Origin: Herminiimonas sp.
Lineage (GTDB): Bacteria; Pseudomonadota; Gammaproteobacteria; Burkholderiales; Burkholderiaceae_D
Assembly (NCBI GenBank): GCA_028292315.1
Contig: JAQGMO010000030.1
Coordinates: forward strand, 1-48,426
Reading direction: 5' to 3'
Length of the DNA: 48,426 nt
Under the pieces are notes generated by a model. The model ran no database searches. It was given only the letters and a program-made list of their open reading frames with translations, and had not been told where the DNA came from. Numbering within the stretch: position 1 is the first letter of the stretch; every line of letters starts with the position of its first letter. This document shows, in pieces, positions 8,682 to 48,426 of the stretch. A program made the translations under genes and the position numbers.

Positions 8682-10046
8682 TTATTGAGCGACGGCGTTG
8701 CTTAAATTGGGCAGCCAGGTGGCCACTTGCGGGAAAATGATCAGTACCAGGACCACGCCGAGCAGTGCGACCCAGTACGCAACCGAACCGGAAAAAATTT
8801 CCCCGGTTGTTAATCCTTTTTCATTCGGCACCGCCGATCGAACCGTGAACACCAGGATGCCGAACGGCGGCGTCAGCAAACCGACTTCGATTGCGATGAT
8901 GCCGAGGATGGCGAAAGCGATCGGATCGAATTGCAGCGCCACCGCCAGCGGAGCGAACACCGGCACGGTCAGAAGGATGATGGAAATCGAATCGATTACG
9001 CAGCCCAGCGCCAGCCAGACCAGGATCATCAGGCCGAGGATCACGTAAGGCGACAGGCCGGATTTAAGGAAAAAATCCTGCGTGGCCCCGGTGATGCCCG
9101 TCATCGAAAGGATGCGCGAGTAAAGCTGGGCAGTCACCAGCAATAACAGCAGCGGGGCCGACGTCCTGCCGACCGACAGGATCGCATCCAGCATTTCTTG
9201 CGCTTTCATTCCGCGCATCATCGCAAGCAGCAGCGACAACGCGGCGCCCACGCCCGCGCCTTCAGTCGGCGTGAAATACCCCAGCCAGATGCCGCCCAAC
9301 ACCAGCGTAACCAGAGCGATGATGCCGGCGGTGCTCCAGAGTATGGTCTTGAGATCGACATCGGCGAACGCGTCATTGGCCAGCCGGGCCTCGGCCTGAA
9401 TTGCGGGCAGGTTCGGCCCTTCGCCGACGCGCGCCGGCGTGAACTTGGCCACGCCGATGATATAGAGGATATAAAACGCGACCAGGATGAAACCGGGAAC
9501 GATGCCCGCGATGAATAGCTTGCCGATCGAGATTTCGGTCAGCACGCCCCAGACGATCATCAGCACCGAAGGCGGGATCAGCATGCCGAGACAGGCGCTG
9601 CCGGCAATGCAGCCGAGCGCGAACTTGCGTTCATAGCCGAAGCGCCGCATTTCGGGATAGGCAATCTTGGAAAATGTCGCCGCTGCCGCGATCGAGACGC
9701 CGGTCACGAAGGCGAACACCGCGTTAGCCAGCACCGTGGCGACGCCGAGGCGGCCCGGCACCCATTTGAGCAGGCGGTTGAGCAAGGCATACAAATCGCG
9801 CGCGGCGCCGCACTTCGCAAGGAATTCACCCATCAGCATGAACAGTGGGATTACCGCGAAAACATAGTCGCGCAAGGCTTCATACGCCGTATTGGCCGTG
9901 AACGACTTGACGGTTTCGATGTCCCCATTGATGAGGTATATGCCCAGCATGCTGGTGATGCCGAGCGAAACCGCGATATGTATTCCGCAAAACACCAGCG
10001 CGAGCAGCACCGATACCAGGATGATCATGTCTCCCGCATTGAACAT
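8682..10046 (-). CDS. dctM: TRAP transporter large permease (DctM family)
   Basis: Main membrane subunit of a tripartite ATP-independent periplasmic transporter, using an ion gradient to bring in the ligand delivered by the binding protein. The 454 residues contain about 12 hydrophobic segments and DctM-family stretches such as GEFLAKCGAARDLY and LIPPSVLMIVWG. Glycine/proline-rich re-entrant loops are visible (TPTEGAGVG, GLLTPPFGILVF). A GGAG motif lies 9 bases before the ATG. It begins 19 bases after the dctQ stop in the order dctP-dctQ-dctM-DUF1330, all on the minus strand. Confidence 0.93.
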   Translation of the reverse strand: MFNAGDMIILVSVLLALVFCGIHIAVSLGITSMLGIYLINGDIETVKSFTANTAYEALRDYVFAVIPLFMLMGEFLAKCGAARDLYALLNRLLKWVPGRLGVATVLANAVFAFVTGVSIAAAATFSKIAYPEMRRFGYERKFALGCIAGSACLGMLIPPSVLMIVWGVLTEISIGKLFIAGIVPGFILVAFYILYIIGVAKFTPARVGEGPNLPAIQAEARLANDAFADVDLKTILWSTAGIIALVTLVLGGIWLGYFTPTEGAGVGAALSLLLAMMRGMKAQEMLDAILSVGRTSAPLLLLLVTAQLYSRILSMTGITGATQDFFLKSGLSPYVILGLMILVWLALGCVIDSISIILLTVPVFAPLAVALQFDPIAFAILGIIAIEVGLLTPPFGILVFTVRSAVPNEKGLTTGEIFSGSVAYWVALLGVVLVLIIFPQVATWLPNLSNAVAQ

Positions 10047-10065
10047 TATTTTTGTCTCCGGGATG

Positions 10066-10584
10066 CTAGTGTGAGGAACCGGACTGGACTGGCGCTTCGC
10101 CGGCCCTGAACAGACTGATGTTTTGCGCCGTCATCAACAGGTAGCTCGTGGTCGCCAGCGCGGTGCCAAGCACGATCGCAAAACGGGTCGGCCAGGCCGG
10201 CACCCGCAATGCGCCTTCCCCTTCGAATTCATTGGTGGTCCAGGCATGGATCGCGGTCTCGATGCTGCCCCAGCAAATGAAAGCAAAAAACGCCGCGCCG
10301 GCCAGGGCGCCGATGATTCCCAGGAAGGACTGTCCGCGTAGCGGCAATTTGTTGACGAATACATCGACGTTGAGCATGCCGCCCGAGCGGATCGCATAGC
10401 CGGCCTGCAGATAGCAAATGATGACGATGCAGGTGGATACGATTTCCGGCGTGCCCTTGACCGGACTGTTGAATGCGACCCGTCCGATCACGTCGGCGAC
10501 AACCAGGAAGCAAAGCATGAAAGCCAGGACTGCGGCAGCAATCAGCAGGGCCTGGGTAACCCTGTCATTGAGACGAGTAAGCAT
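10066..10584 (-). CDS. dctQ: TRAP transporter small permease (DctQ family)
   Basis: Small membrane subunit of the first TRAP system; it has four predicted transmembrane helices in 172 residues and partners the DctM protein encoded next. Typical DctQ features are the N-terminal helix LLIAAAVLAFMLCFLVVAD followed by the VIGRVAFNSPVKGTPE loop. The gene sits 57 bases after dctP and 19 bases before dctM. Symbols dctP/Q/M are family names; the transported compound is not known to be a C4-dicarboxylate. Confidence 0.9.
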   Translation of the reverse strand: MLTRLNDRVTQALLIAAAVLAFMLCFLVVADVIGRVAFNSPVKGTPEIVSTCIVIICYLQAGYAIRSGGMLNVDVFVNKLPLRGQSFLGIIGALAGAAFFAFICWGSIETAIHAWTTNEFEGEGALRVPAWPTRFAIVLGTALATTSYLLMTAQNISLFRAGEAPVQSGSSH

Positions 10585-10641
10585 GGTGTCGGTCCGGAAG
10601 AGCGCGGCTTGCTCAAGCAGGCCGCGCGGGTGGAAAAACCG

Positions 10642-11706
10642 TTACTTGATCGAATACTTCAATGGCCATTTATGGCCGAGTTTTTCCGCCTCATCCAGGG
10701 CGAGCTTGAGAACCTGGGTCGCCGGCAAGCCCTGCTTGTCCAGTTCCGTGGCGCGCTCCTGCGGCCAGCCCTTGAGCGAGTTGGCCCAATCGACCCGCAC
10801 CGCCTCAGGCACCGCCTTGATAACGGTGCCGACCGATTTCAGCTGTTCGATCTGCTTTGGATAGTTTTCTTCATTGACGGTGCCGGTCTTCGCTTCATAC
10901 TCGCGGCCCACTTGGACAATAATGTCCTGCACTTCCTTCGGCAGCCTGGCGAAGCGGCTTTTGTTGATGGTCAGGCCGTGCCAGGTAATGGCGCCGAAAC
11001 CGACCTCGGTATAGTATTTGGCGACTTCGTGCAGCTTGAAATTGCTCCAGCCGGAAGGAAACATGATCCAGCCGTTGTAGACCCCGGTCTGCATCGATGT
11101 ATAAGCCTCCGGCAGCGAAGACTGCACCGGCACCGCGCCTGCAAACTCGAGCCATTTCAGGTTAAGGCCGGCGCCGGCAAGCTTGCGGCCCTTGAGGTCG
11201 GCCACGCTATTCCATTCAAAGCTGGTGCCGAGGTTATAGCCGTTATCGGAAATCAGTCCGATCAGGCGCTGGTTGAACTTGTCTTCAAAGACTTTGCTCA
11301 TGTACGGCACCTTGTCGTACACGGTACGCGCCAGCTTGACGCTCTTTTCCGGACTCATCGTTCCGAAAGGCAGCATCACCTGGAATGCATGCAGTGGCAG
11401 ATTCGATGGCTCGAAGCAGAAACAGAAGCCGCCGATATCGATGATCCCCGATTGCACCGCTTCCAGCGTATCGGCAACCTTGACCATGGAGCCGCCGTAG
11501 CCCTCGATGAATTCGATCTTGTGCTTGCCGGTGGCGTTGACACGCTTGGTCACCTCCGGCACGAAGAAGGTTTGCATCAGATTGACATAGGTATTTACGG
11601 CTGGATGGCCGGAGGCGATACGCAACTTGATGTCTTCGGCCTGGACTGCCGTTGCGGTAAATCCGAATAGCAATGCGGCAAGCGCCGCACTCAGCGGTTT
11701 TAACAT
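10642..11706 (-). CDS. dctP: TRAP transporter substrate-binding protein (DctP family), atypical ligand site
   Basis: Periplasmic binding protein of the first TRAP system, 354 residues with a signal peptide ending in AVQA before EDIKLRI. DctP-fold landmarks are visible: GYGGSMVKVADTLEAVQSG, DLKGRKLAG and the Trp/aromatic-rich GWIMFPSGW segment. Most DctP proteins have an arginine in the LKGLKIR motif that clamps the ligand carboxylate. Here the aligned stretch reads GRKLAGAGLNLKW with alanine in that position, so the ligand or its binding mode may differ. Its start faces a GntR gene across 298 bases that contain repeat motifs, suggesting control by that regulator. Confidence 0.9.
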   Translation of the reverse strand: MLKPLSAALAALLFGFTATAVQAEDIKLRIASGHPAVNTYVNLMQTFFVPEVTKRVNATGKHKIEFIEGYGGSMVKVADTLEAVQSGIIDIGGFCFCFEPSNLPLHAFQVMLPFGTMSPEKSVKLARTVYDKVPYMSKVFEDKFNQRLIGLISDNGYNLGTSFEWNSVADLKGRKLAGAGLNLKWLEFAGAVPVQSSLPEAYTSMQTGVYNGWIMFPSGWSNFKLHEVAKYYTEVGFGAITWHGLTINKSRFARLPKEVQDIIVQVGREYEAKTGTVNEENYPKQIEQLKSVGTVIKAVPEAVRVDWANSLKGWPQERATELDKQGLPATQVLKLALDEAEKLGHKWPLKYSIK

Positions 11707-14326: not shown

Positions 14327-15019
14327 ATGTCGTATGTAATCCCGGCCCCGAAACAAGCAGTCATCGATGTGGTGGGCACCGATGCAAAATTCCCGGTCCG
14401 GCGCATCTGGTGCGTCGGCCGCAACTACGCCGACCATGCGCGCGAGATGGGCCATGACCCGTCGCGCGAGCCGCCCTTCTTTTTCCAGAAGCCGACAGAT
14501 TCGATCGTGCCGTCCGGCTCGACCATTGACTACCCGCCGAAAACCAAGGACCTGCATCATGAAATCGAGCTCGTCATCTGCATCGGCAAGGGCGGAAGCA
14601 ATATTCCGATTGAAAAAGCGCTTGACCATGTGTACGGCTATGCGCTCGGTCTCGACATGACGCGCCGCGACCTCCAGGGAGAAGCCAAAAAGCTGCAGCG
14701 GCCATGGGAAATGGGCAAGGCGTTCGACCAGTCGACGCCGGTCACTGCGGTGCAGCCGGCGGCCAAGATCGGACATCCAAAGGCCGGCGCCATCTCGGTC
14801 AAGGTCAATGGCGAGTTCCGCCAGCAGGGCAACCTCGATCAGCAAATCTGGCAAATCGACGAAACCATTTCTTACTTGTCCGAGTTTGTGACCCTGGAGC
14901 CGGGCGACATCATCATGACCGGCACCCCGGCTGGCGTCGGCCCCTGCGTGGCCGGCGACAAGCTCGAAGGGCACCTCGAGGGCGTGGGCGACCTGACCGT
15001 CACCTATCGCGCGGCGTAA
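14327..15019 (+). CDS. fumarylacetoacetate hydrolase family protein, fumarylpyruvate hydrolase-like (NagK type)
   Basis: A 230-residue FAH-family hydrolase that cleaves a C-C bond in a beta-diketo acid. The metal site is in LHHEIELVICIGKGG and GYALGLDMTRRDLQ, the catalytic core includes KAFDQSTPV, and the C-terminal signature is GDIIMTGTPAGVGP. Length and sequence style match fumarylpyruvate hydrolases of the gentisate/salicylate pathway (product: fumarate plus pyruvate). No gentisate dioxygenase or maleylpyruvate isomerase is present in this window, so the pathway is inferred. A GAGGAG site lies close to the ATG. The terminator at 14256-14283 separates it from the VOC gene, so it may also have its own promoter. 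Confidence 0.9.
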   Translation: MSYVIPAPKQAVIDVVGTDAKFPVRRIWCVGRNYADHAREMGHDPSREPPFFFQKPTDSIVPSGSTIDYPPKTKDLHHEIELVICIGKGGSNIPIEKALDHVYGYALGLDMTRRDLQGEAKKLQRPWEMGKAFDQSTPVTAVQPAAKIGHPKAGAISVKVNGEFRQQGNLDQQIWQIDETISYLSEFVTLEPGDIIMTGTPAGVGPCVAGDKLEGHLEGVGDLTVTYRAA

Positions 15020-15030
15020 CGGAGCACATT

Positions 15031-15059
15031 GCGGGCACGCTCGGTGGGAGCGCGCCCGC
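15031..15059. terminator. interrupted stem-loop between convergent genes
   Basis: GCGGGC/GCCCGC and an inner GCTC/GAGC pair form a two-part stem with mismatches, starting 11 bases after the hydrolase stop and touching the stop of the small minus-strand ORF. There is no U-tract; it is a possible shared 3'-end structure. Confidence 0.35.
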
Positions 15060-15223
15060 TAGGACGCCGGCCTGATATCGAGCGGCGGATGATCGACTTT
15101 GCACTGGACAAGATCGCCGTCGATCAGGCATCCCATGAATGCGTCGGCTTCCTGCGGCGTATCGAATATATAAACCATGTCGTCCACCGCGACTTCAATC
15201 CGGGAGATGCTGGTAATAACCAT
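15059..15223 (-). CDS. small hypothetical protein, 54 residues
   Basis: A short frame with a strong ribosome-binding site (AAAGGGGAT before the ATG) encodes 54 residues starting MVITSISRIEVAVDD and continuing with a YIFDTPQEADAFMGC segment; the C terminus ends in PLDIRPAS. The composition is acidic and soluble, without a signal or membrane helix. The segment DTPQEADAF suggests a small alpha/beta protein, but I cannot place it in a family. It is flanked by convergent (hydrolase) and divergent (PCC-domain) genes and is therefore its own transcription unit. The start codon, the Shine-Dalgarno and the absence of any better frame on the other strand support it as real. Confidence 0.6.
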   Translation of the reverse strand: MVITSISRIEVAVDDMVYIFDTPQEADAFMGCLIDGDLVQCKVDHPPLDIRPAS

Positions 15224-15367
15224 CGGTCGATCCCCTTTCGGCTGGTTCCTGGATTCTCGTGATTCTTCTTTTGCTCAGGCGTTTATAAGCGGCGAAAGTT
15301 CCCGATCAAATGCGGTGTGCCATCGCGCGTGCCTTTTCGCCGCGACTGCGCTAATCTGGCGAATATC

Positions 15368-15763
15368 ATGCAAACACTTCCATTGCGCCTTACTCCTGGA
15401 CAAGACTTGAGAGCAGCTCTTGAAGCCGCGCTATCCGAGCATCAAGTGAATGCTGGCTTCGTACTTCAGGGCATCGGCAGCCTGAGCGTGGCGCAACTGC
15501 GGCTTGCCGGCGCAAAGCGCACCACCGAATTGCGCGGGGACCTGGAGATCCTGAGCCTTGCCGGGTCGCTGTCGTCCGATGGCGCGCATCTTCACATGGC
15601 CGTGGCCGATGCGCAAGGCCGTGTGCTGGGAGGGCATGTGGCGGCCGGGTGCCTGGTGCGCACGACAGCCGAAGTACTGCTTGCGCTGCTGCCGGCGTTC
15701 CATTTTGCGCGGGAAAAAGACCCCGGGTCAGGCTTCAATGAATTGGTGATACGCCCGCAATGA
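15368..15763 (+). CDS. PCC (PPC/DUF296) domain protein
   Basis: A 131-residue protein consisting of one PCC domain (also called PPC or DUF296), the fold found alone in bacterial proteins and fused to AT-hooks in plant nuclear proteins. Diagnostic segments are VLQGIGSLSVAQLRLAG, LAGSLSSDGAHLHMAVADAQG and VLGGHVAAGCLVRTTAEVLL. The histidines of HLH and GGH can form the metal site seen in bacterial trimers. Start chosen at ATG 15368 because the domain begins there; an in-frame extension upstream reads as non-conserved sequence. Its role is unknown. It converges on the flippase-like gene. Confidence 0.85.
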   Translation: MQTLPLRLTPGQDLRAALEAALSEHQVNAGFVLQGIGSLSVAQLRLAGAKRTTELRGDLEILSLAGSLSSDGAHLHMAVADAQGRVLGGHVAAGCLVRTTAEVLLALLPAFHFAREKDPGSGFNELVIRPQ

Positions 15764-28581: not shown

Positions 28582-29568
28582 TTACTGGGCGTTGCGAATC
28601 CGATCGATATTGGCTTTGCCGAATTGCTTTTCAAATTCGACATAGGCCGGCTTCAGGGCATCCACGAATTTGCTCTTGTCGACATTGTCGACCACCTGCA
28701 TGCCGCGCGCGCGCAACTCGCTCACGGCATTTTTTTCCTCGGCGTCGACCTTGGCGCGGCCGGCTTTCGCGCCTTCTTTTGCCGCGTCCAGGAAGATTTT
28801 CTTGTCGGCTTCCGGTAACTTGTCGAATATCGCCTTGTTCATCAAAAACATGGTCGGTGTATAGACATGGCCCGTCAAGGACAGGTGCTTCTGGACCTGG
28901 TCGAACTTGGACGTGGTAATGACGGTCAATGGATTTTCCTGGCCGTCGACCACCCCTTGCTGCAAAGCCATGAACACTTCGCTGAAGCCCATCGGCGTCG
29001 GCGAGATACCGAATGTCCGGTACGCCTGGATGTGGACCGGATTTTCCATCGTGCGCATTTTCAGGCCCTTCAGATCTTCCGGCGCCTTGACCGGGCGCTT
29101 GCTGTTGGTCATGTGGCGGAAGCCGTTCTCGCCCCACGCCATCGCCTTGAATCCGCGGGCGTCGAACTTTTGCAGCATTTCCTGGCCGATCGGGCCGTCA
29201 AGCACCGAACGCGCATGGGCGGCGTCGCGGAACAGGAACGGCACGTCGACAATCTTCACTTCCGGCACAAAACTCGGCAACGCGCCGGTCGAGGCGTAAG
29301 TCAGTTCCTGCGTGCCCAGCTGGACCGCTTCGATCGCCTCGCGCTCGGCACCGGTCGCATTGGCGTAAAAAGTCTGAATCTTGTAGCGGCCGCTGGTGCG
29401 CTTCTCGACTTCCGCGGCAAAGACGTCGATCGCGACGCCGTAGTGTGTATTCTTGGCGAGGGCGGTGCTGATGCGCATCTGGGTTTGCGCCGATGCCGTG
29501 CCCGAAACCAGACCCGCGGTAAGGGCGGACAATGCGACTACCACTGCTTTAAGGTAAATTGATTTCAT
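28582..29568 (-). CDS. TRAP transporter substrate-binding protein (DctP family) without adjacent permease
   Basis: Periplasmic binding protein of 328 residues, signal peptide ending in GTASA before QTQMRIS. It has the canonical ligand arginine in GLKMRTMENP and the usual SPTPMGFSEVFMALQQGVVDGQENP block, so a carboxylate ligand is likely. An AGGAGA site precedes the ATG. No DctQ/DctM gene lies beside it; the nearest unpaired DctQ-DctM genes are at 36951-38769. It leads a minus-strand run into the 2-hydroxyacid dehydrogenase gene and diverges from the amidohydrolase cluster. Confidence 0.93.
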   Translation of the reverse strand: MKSIYLKAVVVALSALTAGLVSGTASAQTQMRISTALAKNTHYGVAIDVFAAEVEKRTSGRYKIQTFYANATGAEREAIEAVQLGTQELTYASTGALPSFVPEVKIVDVPFLFRDAAHARSVLDGPIGQEMLQKFDARGFKAMAWGENGFRHMTNSKRPVKAPEDLKGLKMRTMENPVHIQAYRTFGISPTPMGFSEVFMALQQGVVDGQENPLTVITTSKFDQVQKHLSLTGHVYTPTMFLMNKAIFDKLPEADKKIFLDAAKEGAKAGRAKVDAEEKNAVSELRARGMQVVDNVDKSKFVDALKPAYVEFEKQFGKANIDRIRNAQ

Positions 29569-36950: not shown

Positions 36951-38243
36951 TCATTTGAATCCCCATACATGGGGCAACCATGTTGAAAGCGCCGGGATAA
37001 AGGTCAGCATCAGCAGCACGATGCCATGTGCGATCAGGAACGGCGTTAATTCGCGGGTAAGCGCCGGCAATGGAATCCTTGCCACATTCGACGTAACAAA
37101 TAACAAGCCCCCTACCGGCGGTGTGATCATGCCGAGCGTAAGGTTGTAGATCACGATCATCGCGAAATGGATCGGATCGATGCCGGCAGCCGCAGTGAGA
37201 GGCGCAAGAATTGGCACCAGTATCAGCACTCCCGGCATCGGTTCGATGAAAATCCCGAATATCAGCAAGAAGATGTTGATGACGATGAGCAAAAGCCACG
37301 GTGACATCTGCCATTTCGTGACCATCTCCGCCATATCATAGGGAACGCGTTCAACCGTCAAAATCCATGCAAATGCGGTGGAAAGTCCAATGATAATCAG
37401 CACTGCCGAGGTAAGCATCGCCGATCGCGCGAGGATGTGCGGCAGCGCTTTCCATTCCAGAGTCCGGTAAACCCATTTCCCGCAAGCCAGGGCATAAAAT
37501 ACCGCCACGACGGAGGCCTCGGTAGGCGTAAACCAGCCGGCCCGCATGCCGCCAAGAATCAGCACCGGGAGCAGCAAGGCGGGTATGGCGGTCCACGTGT
37601 TGTACAGCACTTCCCGCAGCGGCGGGAATTTGCCATCGCCCCGGTAGTTGCGTTTCTTCGACACATGCCAGTTCACGACCGACATGGCGCCGGCGATCAA
37701 CAGCCCGGGTATCATCCCCGCTACAAACAGGGCGCCGATTGAAACCGTTTCATCCTGCAATCCATAGATGATCATGATAATGGATGGCGGAATAATCGGC
37801 CCGACGATTGCAGTGGACGCTGTCAGGGCGCCGGCATAGGCACGGTCGTAGCCTGCCTTGTCCATCATTTTGATCATCATCGAGCCCGGTCCGGCAGCAT
37901 CCGCAAGCGCCGATCCGGAAATCCCCGAAAAGAATGTCAGCGCCGCCACGTTGGTGTAGCCAAGCCCGCCGCGCTTGTGGCCGACAAACTGCCCGGCGAA
38001 TCGCAACAGCACCATAGTGAGTGATCCACCGCTCATCAACTCCGCAGCCAGTATAAAGAACGGTACCGCCATCAGCGAAAAGCTGTCGATACCCGTGAAG
38101 GTTTCCTTCAACACGACGATCATCGGGTATTTGCCAACCGCCAGTATTGCAATAGCCGTGGAAATGCCCAGCGAAAACGCGACGGGCATGCCGATTGCCA
38201 GCAAAATGCAAGCGGAAATGACCATAATCAGGCTCATGCTCAT
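36951..38243 (-). CDS. TRAP transporter large permease (DctM family), second system
   Basis: Inner-membrane permease of 430 residues with about 12 hydrophobic segments. DctM signatures are AVPFFILAAELMSGG, KRGGLGYTNVAALTFFSGISG, GPIIPPSIIMIIYG and LGMITPPVGGLLFVTSNVA. It is translated 13 bases after the DctQ gene. There is no binding-protein gene in this operon, although a matching one is required for function. The unpaired DctP gene at 28582-29568 is the nearest candidate. Confidence 0.93.
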   Translation of the reverse strand: MSMSLIMVISACILLAIGMPVAFSLGISTAIAILAVGKYPMIVVLKETFTGIDSFSLMAVPFFILAAELMSGGSLTMVLLRFAGQFVGHKRGGLGYTNVAALTFFSGISGSALADAAGPGSMMIKMMDKAGYDRAYAGALTASTAIVGPIIPPSIIMIIYGLQDETVSIGALFVAGMIPGLLIAGAMSVVNWHVSKKRNYRGDGKFPPLREVLYNTWTAIPALLLPVLILGGMRAGWFTPTEASVVAVFYALACGKWVYRTLEWKALPHILARSAMLTSAVLIIIGLSTAFAWILTVERVPYDMAEMVTKWQMSPWLLLIVINIFLLIFGIFIEPMPGVLILVPILAPLTAAAGIDPIHFAMIVIYNLTLGMITPPVGGLLFVTSNVARIPLPALTRELTPFLIAHGIVLLMLTFIPALSTWLPHVWGFK

Positions 38244-44406: not shown

Positions 44407-44604
44407 ATGAATCCGAAAGCCAGAACCTTCCTGCTTCCGTTCCAGGCTTTGCGCAAAGACTATTTTTTCCTGATCGTGTTTGCGGTGTTCATCGCGCTGA
44501 CGTCCGCTGCGCCAGAACAACCCGCCGGTTATCATGCTTTGGTCGACTGGCGCAGGATCGCCACGCTGACGGGATTGATGATCCTGACCAAGGGTGAAAT
44601 GGAT
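44407..44604 (+). pseudogene. 5' fragment of an anion permease (SLC13/ArsB-like), truncated
   Basis: From ATG 44407 the frame encodes a typical permease N terminus: a first membrane helix FFLIVFAVFIALTSAAP, then ALVDWRRIATLTGLMILTKG. The similarity ends right at LTKG, where the sequence becomes molybdenum hydroxylase in another frame (GTG AAA TGG at 44594). The permease frame hits TGA two codons later. A full permease would be ~400-450 residues, so only ~60 remain. This is a deletion or insertion junction, and the product cannot be functional. Confidence 0.7.
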
Positions 44605-46120
44605 TGAGGATCGACGCGAGCATTTTCTCTCGACCACGCAGGAACGCGATCAGTGGTGGAACATCTCGGTAGCGCTCGAATCCGACGGCAGGATCCGCGG
44701 CGTGCGCCTGGACATGATCCACGACAATGGTGCCTTTCTTCCCTGGGGCGTGATTACGCCGTATATTTCAATTACAACGACGCCGGGTCCTTATGTGATA
44801 CCGGCGATGCAAGCGCAATTAAAGGTTGTATTTACCAACAAGTGCGCTACCTCCCCAGTGCGAGGAGCCGGGCGTCCGCAAGCCGTCTTCGCGATGGAGA
44901 GAATTCTCGACAAGGCCGCCAAAACCCTGGGCATCGACCGTGCCGAACTGAGGCGGCACAACTTCATCCAGCCTTCCCAGATGCCCTATGACGTCGGGTT
45001 TATCTATCGAGACGGCAAGCCGATGAAGTACGATAGTGGCGACTATCCGGCTTGCCTCCAGGCCGCGCTCGAACGGGCTGACTACGCCGGCTTCCCCCAA
45101 CGCAAGGCCGCTGCGCGACGAAACGGGCGCTTTCTCGGGATAGGCATCGGCAATTTTGTCGAAGGAACCGGAATGGGGCCCTTTGAAGGGGCCACGGTGC
45201 GGGTGCAAGCCACCGGTCGAATTACCGTCCTGACCGGCGCCTCGCCGCAAGGGCAAGGACACAAGACCACCCTTGCGCAGATATGCGCGGAACAGTTGAA
45301 CATTCCGCTTGAACTGGTCGATGTGATAACGGGCGATACCGGCGGGATTTCCATGGGGGTGGGCACTTTCGCAAGCCGCGTCACAGTCAACGCGGGCAAT
45401 TCGGTTTTTTTGGCAGCAGACAAGGTGCGCGCGAAGATCATCACGCTGGCTGCCTCCCTACTCCGGTGTGAAGAAAAAGACCTGCGGCTCATGGCCGGAG
45501 TGGTCTCCAGTTCGACCACTCCGGGAAACAGCATCAGTTACGGCGAACTCGCAAGAATTTCTCAGGGCATGCCTGGTTTTTCCCTGCCCGAGGGACTCAA
45601 TGGCGGGCTTGAGGATACCCATTACTTCACGCCTTCGCAATCGACATATTGCAATGGCACGGCAATCGTCGAGCTGGAAGTTGACCGGGAAACCGGACAG
45701 ATCTCGATATGCAACTATGTCATGGCGCACGACTGCGGCAAGGTGATCAATCCCATGCTGGTGGAGGGACAGGTGATCGGCTCGGTTGCGCATGGCATCG
45801 GCAATGCAACGCTGGAATGGATGCAGTATGACGACAACGCGCAGCCCACGACAACGAATTTCGGGGAGTACCTGCTCCCCATGGCCACGGATGTCCCGAA
45901 TATCGACATCGTTCATCTCGAGACCCCTTCGCCGCTGAATCCGCTTGGCGTAAAAGGCGCCGGCGAGGGAGGGACGATTCCCGCTGCGGCAGCAATTGTC
46001 GGCGCGATGGAGGACGCGTTGTCGGAGTACGGGGTAACGTTCACGGAAGCCCCACTGGTGCCGCACCGTGTTTTCCAAAAGCTCAAGGAGGCGGGTGCCT
46101 ATGACAAGCCCGTAATCTGA
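44594..46120 (+). pseudogene. molybdopterin-dependent hydroxylase large subunit (CoxL/XdhB-like), 5' truncated
   Basis: About 508 residues equal to the C-terminal two-thirds of a CO-dehydrogenase/xanthine-dehydrogenase large subunit, which binds the Mo cofactor. It begins VKWIEDRREHFLSTTQERD, an internal motif. SPVRGAGRPQAVFAMERILD is the AYRGAGR-type loop of form II-like enzymes, and the ending has the catalytic Glu in KGAGEGGTIPAAAA. Missing are the first ~270 residues, including the cofactor-binding start, and no small or FAD subunit gene is nearby. The first GTG codon is at the junction and has no proper ribosome-binding site. The remaining frame is intact with no internal stops, so the event is recent or the piece is expressed. 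Confidence 0.8.
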
Positions 46121-46172: not shown

Positions 46173-46904
46173 ATGACCACTGAACTGGACACATCAATCC
46201 ATGGACAAGAGTGCCATATTGTCTTCACGCGACCGGAAGCCGATAACGCTTTAACGCTGGACGGTATTCGACAGCTCGCCGCCGCAATTCGTGAGGCTGG
46301 TCGAGACGACGCATTGAAACTGATTCGAATCCGCTCGACCGGCGCAAGTTTTTGTGGCGGACGCGCCCCTGGCAAGCCGCCCGCGCGGCCGCCGACCGCG
46401 GCGCAGTTCCGTCGCACTGTCGCTGATCCGATTCTCGACGTATATCGAGCGTTGCACGAGAGTGAGATACCGGTTCTTGCGGAAGTACAGGGGATTGCGA
46501 AAGGCTTCGGATGCGCATTGGTTGCCGCGTGTGATCTGGCGATTGCCTCCGAGCGCGCGACCTTCAGCTTGCCCGAGATGCGAAACAACCTTCCTCCGAC
46601 GCTTGTACTATCTGTTTTGCGGTACAAAGTGCCGCCTAAAGCGGCTGCCCACCTGGTCTATTTGACCTCATTGATCGATGCAAAGACGGCGCGTGAATTC
46701 GGGATCATAGCGGAAGTTGTTCCCGAGCCGGAATTGATAGCGCGCGGAGATGAAATTGCCGCGTTGGTTACGTCTCGTGATCGTATCGCCCTAGCGGCGC
46801 TCAAGACCTACTTCCGTGAAATTGTAATTCCGGATTTTTCGCTCGCAAGCGAAGCTGCAGGAGCTGCCCTGTCTAACGCAATGACTTCAATGCAGGCAAG
46901 CTAG
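46173..46904 (+). CDS. enoyl-CoA hydratase/isomerase family protein (divergent)
   Basis: A 243-residue crotonase-fold protein. Oxyanion-hole segments are RSTGASFCGGRAPGKPP and VQGIAKGFGCALVAACDLAIA; the second is recognisable, the first is altered. The catalytic Glu positions are not clear: LPEMRNNLPPTLVLS aligns to the second one. It follows the truncated hydroxylase by 52 bases and was probably in its operon. A codon composition less GC-rich than its neighbours (CGA, GCA, GTA more frequent) suggests that this and the hydroxylase fragment may have come together from elsewhere. The substrate is unknown. Confidence 0.82.
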   Translation: MTTELDTSIHGQECHIVFTRPEADNALTLDGIRQLAAAIREAGRDDALKLIRIRSTGASFCGGRAPGKPPARPPTAAQFRRTVADPILDVYRALHESEIPVLAEVQGIAKGFGCALVAACDLAIASERATFSLPEMRNNLPPTLVLSVLRYKVPPKAAAHLVYLTSLIDAKTAREFGIIAEVVPEPELIARGDEIAALVTSRDRIALAALKTYFREIVIPDFSLASEAAGAALSNAMTSMQAS

Positions 46905-47041: not shown

Positions 47042-48426
47042 TCATCCCAGCTTGAACGGATCACGCAGTTCGCCGCTCAATTCGATCCAGATCGTCTTGG
47101 TTTCCAGGTACTCATTCATGCCATCGCGGCCATTCTCGCGACCGATGCCGCTGTGCCCGAAACCGCCGAACGGGGCGAATGGCGCTGTGACCCGATAGGC
47201 ATTGATCCAGACATTGCCGGCCCGCAGTTGCCCGGCCACGCGGTGCGCGCGCTGGACGTTGAGCGTCCACACGCCGGCCGCCAGCCCGTAGCGCGTGTCG
47301 TTCGCGATTTTGACCGCCTCTTCCTCGGTATCGAAAGTCAACACTGACAACACCGGGCCGAACACTTCCTCGCGGGCGATGTTCATCGAGTTGTTGACCC
47401 CGGTCAAAATCGTCGGCATCACGAAAAAGCCGCCTTCGGGCGCCTGTTTGCCGCCGTAGGCCAGCGTTGCACCCTCTTCCTCGGCAGCCTTGACCATCGA
47501 GAGGATCTTGCGGAACTGCGGCTCCGTGGCGGCCGGACCCATTTCGGATGCCATGTCCATCGGGTCGCCCAGCTTGATCGATTTGACGCGGTCGAGCAGA
47601 CGGTCAACCAGTTTGTCGTGAATTGAACGCTGGACGAGCAGGCGCGAGCCTGCCATGCAGGTCTGACCAGTGGCGGCGTAGACGCCCGAAACGACGCCGT
47701 TGGCCGCAGCGTCAAGATCGCAGTCCTCGAACACTACCTGCGGCGACTTGCCGCCCAGCTCCAGTGACACACGCGCGAAATTATCGGCGCCAGCCCGGGC
47801 AATCGCCTTACCGACGCCGTCCGATCCGGTGAACGAGATCTTGTCGACGCGCGGATCGGAAACCAGGTATTTTCCAACATCGGGGCCGCCCGTCACCACA
47901 TTGAACACGCCCGGCGGGAATCCGGCCTCCTCCATCAGCTCGGCGAACATGAGGGTGGATACGGGCGTATGCTCCGACGGCTTGACGACGATCGTGCAGC
48001 CGGCCGCCAGCACGGGGGCCAGCTTGAACATCATCAGCAGACACGGTGAGTTCCATGGCGTGATTGCTGCCACCACGCCGATCGGCTCCTTCTTGGTGAA
48101 CGCCACAAAGTTAGGACGGTCGCTGGGCAGGACTTCGCCCTGTGACTGCGTCGCTATCCCTGCGAAGTAGTACATCCACTCGGGCAGATAGCGCCATTGC
48201 CCCAGCATCTCCCGCAGCAGCTTGCCATTGTCGGAGGATTCAATGCGCGCCATCCGCTCGGCATCTCGCGCCATCAAGTCGCCCAGCTTGCGCATCATCG
48301 CAGCGCGCTGCTGGGGCGTGGTTTGCCTCCAGGGACCGTTATCGAATGCGTTGCGGGCGGCGGTTACGGCAGCCTTCACGTCCTGTTCCGACGCGTCGGG
48401 GACGGTCGCCCATACCTTCTGCTGGT
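47042..48426 (-). CDS. aldehyde dehydrogenase family protein (5' end beyond the window)
   Basis: NAD(P)-dependent aldehyde dehydrogenase. The catalytic cysteine is in ATGQTCMAGS and the general-base Glu in LELGGKSPQVVFED. Other blocks are GVVAAITPWNSPCL, KISFTGSDGVGKAI, EEVFGPVLSVLTFDTEEEA and INAYRVTAPFAPFGGFGHSG near the C terminus. The open frame continues to the right edge (VWATVPDASEQD), so it is partial at the 5' end, and the GTG at 48379 is not the true start. About 461 residues are visible of a likely 480-500. Its aldehyde is not evident from context. Confidence 0.93.
   Translation of the reverse strand, partial: QQKVWATVPDASEQDVKAAVTAARNAFDNGPWRQTTPQQRAAMMRKLGDLMARDAERMARIESSDNGKLLREMLGQWRYLPEWMYYFAGIATQSQGEVLPSDRPNFVAFTKKEPIGVVAAITPWNSPCLLMMFKLAPVLAAGCTIVVKPSEHTPVSTLMFAELMEEAGFPPGVFNVVTGGPDVGKYLVSDPRVDKISFTGSDGVGKAIARAGADNFARVSLELGGKSPQVVFEDCDLDAAANGVVSGVYAATGQTCMAGSRLLVQRSIHDKLVDRLLDRVKSIKLGDPMDMASEMGPAATEPQFRKILSMVKAAEEEGATLAYGGKQAPEGGFFVMPTILTGVNNSMNIAREEVFGPVLSVLTFDTEEEAVKIANDTRYGLAAGVWTLNVQRAHRVAGQLRAGNVWINAYRVTAPFAPFGGFGHSGIGRENGRDGMNEYLETKTIWIELSGELRDPFKLG

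Follow-up and report, generated by a model that had tools for sequence, protein, structure and literature searches.

A two-base junction between a truncated permease gene and a truncated CoxL-type hydroxylase gene in a Herminiimonas draft genome, probably a deletion scar

The window analyzed here is a whole contig of 48,426 nt (C11) from the draft assembly of Herminiimonas sp. (G000; 4.83 Mb in 402 contigs, 92.92% complete, 2.68% contamination). Its metabolic and transport genes include TRAP-type transporter parts at 8682-11706 (DctM, DctP) and at 28582-29568 / 36951-38243 (DctP, DctM). At 44407..44607 (+), a permease-type frame opens with ATG, runs for about 62 permease codons to LMILTKG, and ends after four junction codons at TGA (44605-44607). 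Offset by one base, a second frame opens at a GTG (44594), begins VKWIEDRREHF and continues to 46120 (508 aa). As judged against a second permease copy on contig C105, 44594 is the last base of permease homology; by DNA match to L031, an intact locus from a Burkholderiales MAG, 44593 is the first base of CoxL-type homology. The two homologies thus overlap by GG at 44593..44594 (+). A sequence-only reading of this DNA had described a permease frame that is convincing up to LTKG and then stops, with a different frame beginning at VKWIEDRREHF, and the open reading frames and the edges of homology agree on this. That reading had also proposed the nine-base GGTGAAATG as microhomology at the break. 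The exact overlap is 2 nt: at the junction point the C105 permease reads AAGGGCGTGGAAATG, with CGTGGAAATG where the window shows TGAAATGG, and because the two differ there, GGTGAAATG is an imperfect resemblance only. The join of two truncated, unrelated genes is present in the window sequence and lies far beyond chance.

The permease fragment itself matches none of the Pfam and NCBIfam models, and CitMHS (Pfam) is found in all three intact relatives scanned. With the 62 residues as query, matches occur in 35 of the 294 genomes of the family, the fragment's own included. In the other 34, the match reaches residue 61 or 62 of 62, in open frames of 376-524 aa. A full-length CitMHS-type permease has ~380-400 aa and the window holds 62 codons; comparison with four intact relatives puts the missing part at about 312 codons, fewer than the ~380 first supposed. 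The second copy aligns from window 44440..44594 (+) to C105:16361-16514(-), with 147 of 155 columns identical (95% over 155 bp) and one gap. The seven substitutions are four synonymous and three non-synonymous, a pattern that hints weakly that the copies diverged while still functional. Past the repeat, the C105 copy holds more permease codons, an internal deletion and a frame change, and then a 16-residue match to the permease C-terminus (69%, E 4e-4 against a 560-base subject; weaker with other relatives). C105 thus carries a permease 3' end, and C11 carries the 5' end. Only these two contigs match, and the rest of the permease was not found in the assembly.

The surroundings of the permease were also compared. 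Searching the permease loci of 12 relatives with its neighbors (eight of the nine query proteins) returned only two matches: L084 has a dehydrogenase at 41%, and L085 has a counterpart, at 51%, of the C105 gene at 14772-15518. No permease lies near the intact CoxL loci (seven loci, E<=1e-5). The C105 gene at 14385-15518 (-), close to the second permease copy, has two in-frame stops where L085 has a full-length homologue (53%, residues 64-374 of 377), and seems to be a further pseudogene.

On the other side of the junction, 44594..46120 (+) encodes the truncated large subunit of a CoxL-type molybdenum hydroxylase, here CoxL'. Its match begins at L031:10001 in a gene that begins at 9152, so the fragment starts at residue 284 of this 788-aa relative; 283 residues are absent, rather than the ~270 of the sequence-only reading. 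In a Pfam scan, CoxL' contains MoCoBD_1 from profile position 122 of 244 and a complete MoCoBD_2, and Ald_Xan_dh_C was not found. The intact L031 protein has Ald_Xan_dh_C and both MoCoBD domains in full. Likewise, genes for the medium FAD and small 2Fe-2S subunits stand alongside coxL in L031 and in L030, a Caballeronia sordidicola locus, and are missing here. The start of the window's hydroxylase, which in relatives would have spoken against a break, is absent in all 11 relatives seen: the six named CoxL loci match from query residue 1, as do five of five further genomes from an order-level search (398 genomes, E<=1e-190), in open frames of 802-1028 aa. The full-length coxL gene, of 788 aa in both, was read out in L030 and L031, and in L032-L035 conserved codons directly precede the point where the window's gene starts. 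We rejected identification as an aerobic CO dehydrogenase, as the NCBIfam large-subunit cut-off (950) is reached neither by CoxL' (565.7) nor by two intact relatives (811.3 and 807.8). Ten other contigs of the genome have large-subunit matches (C126, C313, C201, C321, C232, C237, C275, C107, C25 and C276), which indicates a lineage rich in molybdenum hydroxylases.

What remains of CoxL' is well conserved. It differs at five of the 254 sites that are invariant in seven relatives. In leave-one-out comparisons, the five Burkholderia-group loci show 0, 4, 1, 1 and 0 changes at 249-253 sites, Variovorax 22 of 271 and a Xanthobacteraceae MAG 70 of 319. Pairwise dN/dS against the five Burkholderia-group loci is 0.074-0.084, at a saturated dS of 1.66-1.90. 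There is thus no sign of relaxed evolution or prolonged neutral decay, which leaves a recent truncation or a protein that remains under constraint. Continued constraint would fit a working protein put to a new use and driven by the permease promoter, for which the open 508-codon frame, the low dN/dS and the 249 retained sites might speak. We find this highly improbable: the conservation could predate a recent truncation, no relative seen has the window's start, and no spaced ribosome-binding site is visible by eye before the GTG at 44594. With no N-terminal hammerhead domain, only half of MoCoBD_1 and no partner subunits, the predicted 508-aa product is most likely non-functional.

Downstream of CoxL' lies a crotonase gene (enoyl-CoA hydratase family; 46173..46904, +), whose product is 62-68% identical to that of the gene after coxL at five Burkholderia-group loci. 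In L030 and L031 the gene order is alpha/beta hydrolase, coxG-like, coxM, coxS, coxL, crotonase, UbiD, UbiX and aldehyde dehydrogenase, with names mostly assigned from reading the translations; by NCBIfam, the L031 UbiX is above its cut-off, and coxL, coxM and UbiD are below theirs. The intact permease and hydroxylase set that the earlier reading had wished to see aligned occur in relatives, the latter as coxM-coxS-coxL in L030 and L031. Its statement that the other hydroxylase subunits are gone from the locus also held, since L031 operon DNA matches C11 from coxL onward only. Elsewhere in the 92.9%-complete assembly there is no close match to the rest of the operon; other matches are pieces at 66-76% identity, and most of these, the coxM/coxS part included, are on contigs with their own hydroxylase. 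Six-frame matches to operon genes in two intergenic stretches were weak (best E 4e-4 at 34%), and we did not accept them as remnants. We found no literature joining furoyl-CoA dehydrogenase, UbiD and molybdenum. Within the family, only two of 294 genomes match CoxL' at E<=1e-150, its own and one at 48% identity, which suggests, without proving it, that the catabolic cluster was laterally acquired, as it probably was.

The contig ends within an aldehyde dehydrogenase gene (47042..48424, -) that lacks its N-terminus (Aldedh from profile position 17). A candidate for the missing part is a 35-codon piece at the right end of C105 (16880-16986, +). An intact paralog on C54 matches both parts in succession, the C105 piece at its residues 60-81 (E 4e-4 in a search of 12 proteins) and the C11 body at residues 90-547. 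At the DNA level, the C105 end matches paralog N-termini on C237 and C21 (79-81%, E 5e-7 and 1e-5). The 35 residues alone match no Pfam family, and their similarity to the Variovorax enzyme is not significant (E 0.41). Among the 18 dehydrogenase matches in the genome, only those on C11, C21 (two) and C237 reach a contig end, and no other contig in the assembly was found to overlap the right end of C105 or of C11. From these alignments we infer that C11(+) runs into C105(-), with the dehydrogenase split between their right ends; aligned by hand to C54 and Variovorax, it lacks about 8 nt between the two. If so, a segment of 3832 + about 8 + 472 bases, about 4.3 kb, with truncated CoxL, crotonase and aldehyde dehydrogenase, would have a partial copy of a dead permease at either end, both in the same orientation. 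The event is therefore bigger than 44407-44620, as the second permease copy, the split dehydrogenase and the downstream crotonase belong in it. The best match of the window dehydrogenase in a plasmid collection is a Variovorax record (CP063167.1, 68%), which also has a 70% CoxL about 9.5 kb from its dehydrogenase. Within the family, the 115 other genomes hold no close relative of the dehydrogenase at a strict 1e-180, a threshold that leaves room for distant ones.

If the two contigs are joined, a ~4.3 kb segment between 155-bp direct copies of the interrupted gene could recall a discrete mobile element or integrative island, inserted so as to leave long direct repeats of its target. The direct repeat is the only feature that fits. 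Pfam scans of 34 window stretches and seven C105 stretches, a subset of the open reading frames, detected no integrase or transposase family; neither C11 nor C105 has a tRNA; there are no terminal inverted repeats, as the longest matches between the two edges are 8 bp inverted and 9 bp direct; and the left edge falls inside coxL. We therefore regard such an insertion as very doubtful.

The main rival is an artefact, in which a false junction was assembled from chimeric molecules of library preparation or whole-genome amplification, or from mixed strains. The draft is fragmented and the join has a short overlap. In a study of multiple displacement amplification (MDA; PMC1855051), over 70% of chimeras were joined at 2-21 complementary bases. 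The ends of C21 and C237 also lend this rival some weight. The right ends of these contigs (L112 and L113) overlap identically over 77 bases, diverge into conflicting versions of one aldehyde dehydrogenase gene with different internal deletions, and nearly rejoin (76/77 bases). They could stem from chimeric molecules, or be two deletion alleles of a population. An overlap of exactly 77 bases points to a de Bruijn assembler run at k=77, and such an assembler would need reads spanning any join. Against an artefact, neither missing half turned up in the assembly, and the 5% difference between the permease copies shows that they are not duplicates of a single molecule. PMC1855051 also reports that more than 85% of MDA rearrangements were inversions, and the orientation at this junction is direct.

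Base composition also bears on this rival. The tetranucleotide value of the contig tail is 1.24, within the background of 0.79-1.28 (n=45) though above its 90th percentile (1.136), and the five Burkholderia-group loci lie at 1.93-2.65. GC3 is 0.684 for CoxL' and 0.561 for the crotonase, compared with 0.773-0.835 for the intact coxL of three relatives; the dehydrogenase (0.792) does not discriminate. The tail, CoxL' and the crotonase are thus nearer to G000 than to Burkholderia-group DNA, and both tests disfavor a chimera with a Burkholderia-type organism. A misjoin by the assembler of two places in G000 is likewise disfavored, as the missing halves were not found and the tail resembles the genome in composition. 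Where the sequence-only reading had left deletion, rearrangement and assembly error side by side, deletion or rearrangement now fits best and a simple misjoin within the genome has become less likely. Taken as a whole, we judge an artefact unlikely, while giving it more weight than any other rival.

The observed junction, the two truncations, the second permease copy, the intact operon of the relatives and the missing halves, which searches of the assembly did not find, are best explained, in our view, as a real scar of DNA loss, and we think it probable, with considerable reserve, that a cluster came to lie at the permease locus and was then reduced by short-overlap deletions. A catabolic cluster with a CoxL-type molybdenum hydroxylase would have come to sit at a permease gene, with permease parts on both flanks. 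A deletion with a 2-nt overlap would then have joined permease codon 62 to hydroxylase codon 284, at the cost of the remaining codons of that permease copy, of coxM and coxS, and of the initial third of coxL. A separate deletion would have removed the middle of the second permease copy. End-joining or replication slippage may have been the mechanism. The order of these events, like the adjacency of C11 and C105 and the lateral acquisition, is our reconstruction.

A more elaborate proposal, which we consider quite doubtful, adds a route of entry and a tempo to the deletion scar. Recombination with a donor molecule that carried a permease, or some unrecognized mode of integration, would have brought a foreign catabolic segment into the permease gene and left diverged 155-bp direct copies of the target to either side of it. 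The segment would now be eroding through an unusually high rate of short-overlap deletion in this lineage, with alternative deletion alleles coexisting, as C21 and C237 may show.

The locus is chiefly a warning for annotation: its 508-aa "CO/xanthine dehydrogenase large subunit" should not count as a functional molybdenum hydroxylase. If the scar is real, the locus is a compact record of the gain and loss of a catabolic cluster; if it is an artefact, it is an example of draft genomes inventing gene fusions.

Among known systems, the Mo-hydroxylase operons of Caballeronia, Paraburkholderia and Burkholderia (L030-L034) are the counterpart of the intact cluster. The window shares with them CoxL (80-81%), the crotonase (62-68%) and the order of the two genes. 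It differs in lacking coxG, coxM, coxS, the first third of coxL, UbiD and UbiX, and its adjoining dehydrogenase is a different one, about 40% identical to theirs. With MDA chimeric junctions, as described in PMC1855051, the window has the short overlap in common, but its join is direct rather than inverted and its permease copies are 5% different. The closest likeness is to the short-overlap deletion scars of illegitimate recombination: the join is sharp, two truncated and unrelated frames meet at a 2-nt overlap (GG), and the intervening genes are gone. As in scars of decaying genes, other broken genes lie nearby, namely the second permease copy and the C105 gene with two stops. What sets it apart is that, should C11 adjoin C105, partial direct copies would stand on both sides of the deleted permease. 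Overall, a deletion scar of the ordinary kind is the most likely account of the locus, whose setting is somewhat richer than the sequence-only reading described, and no new system has to be invoked.
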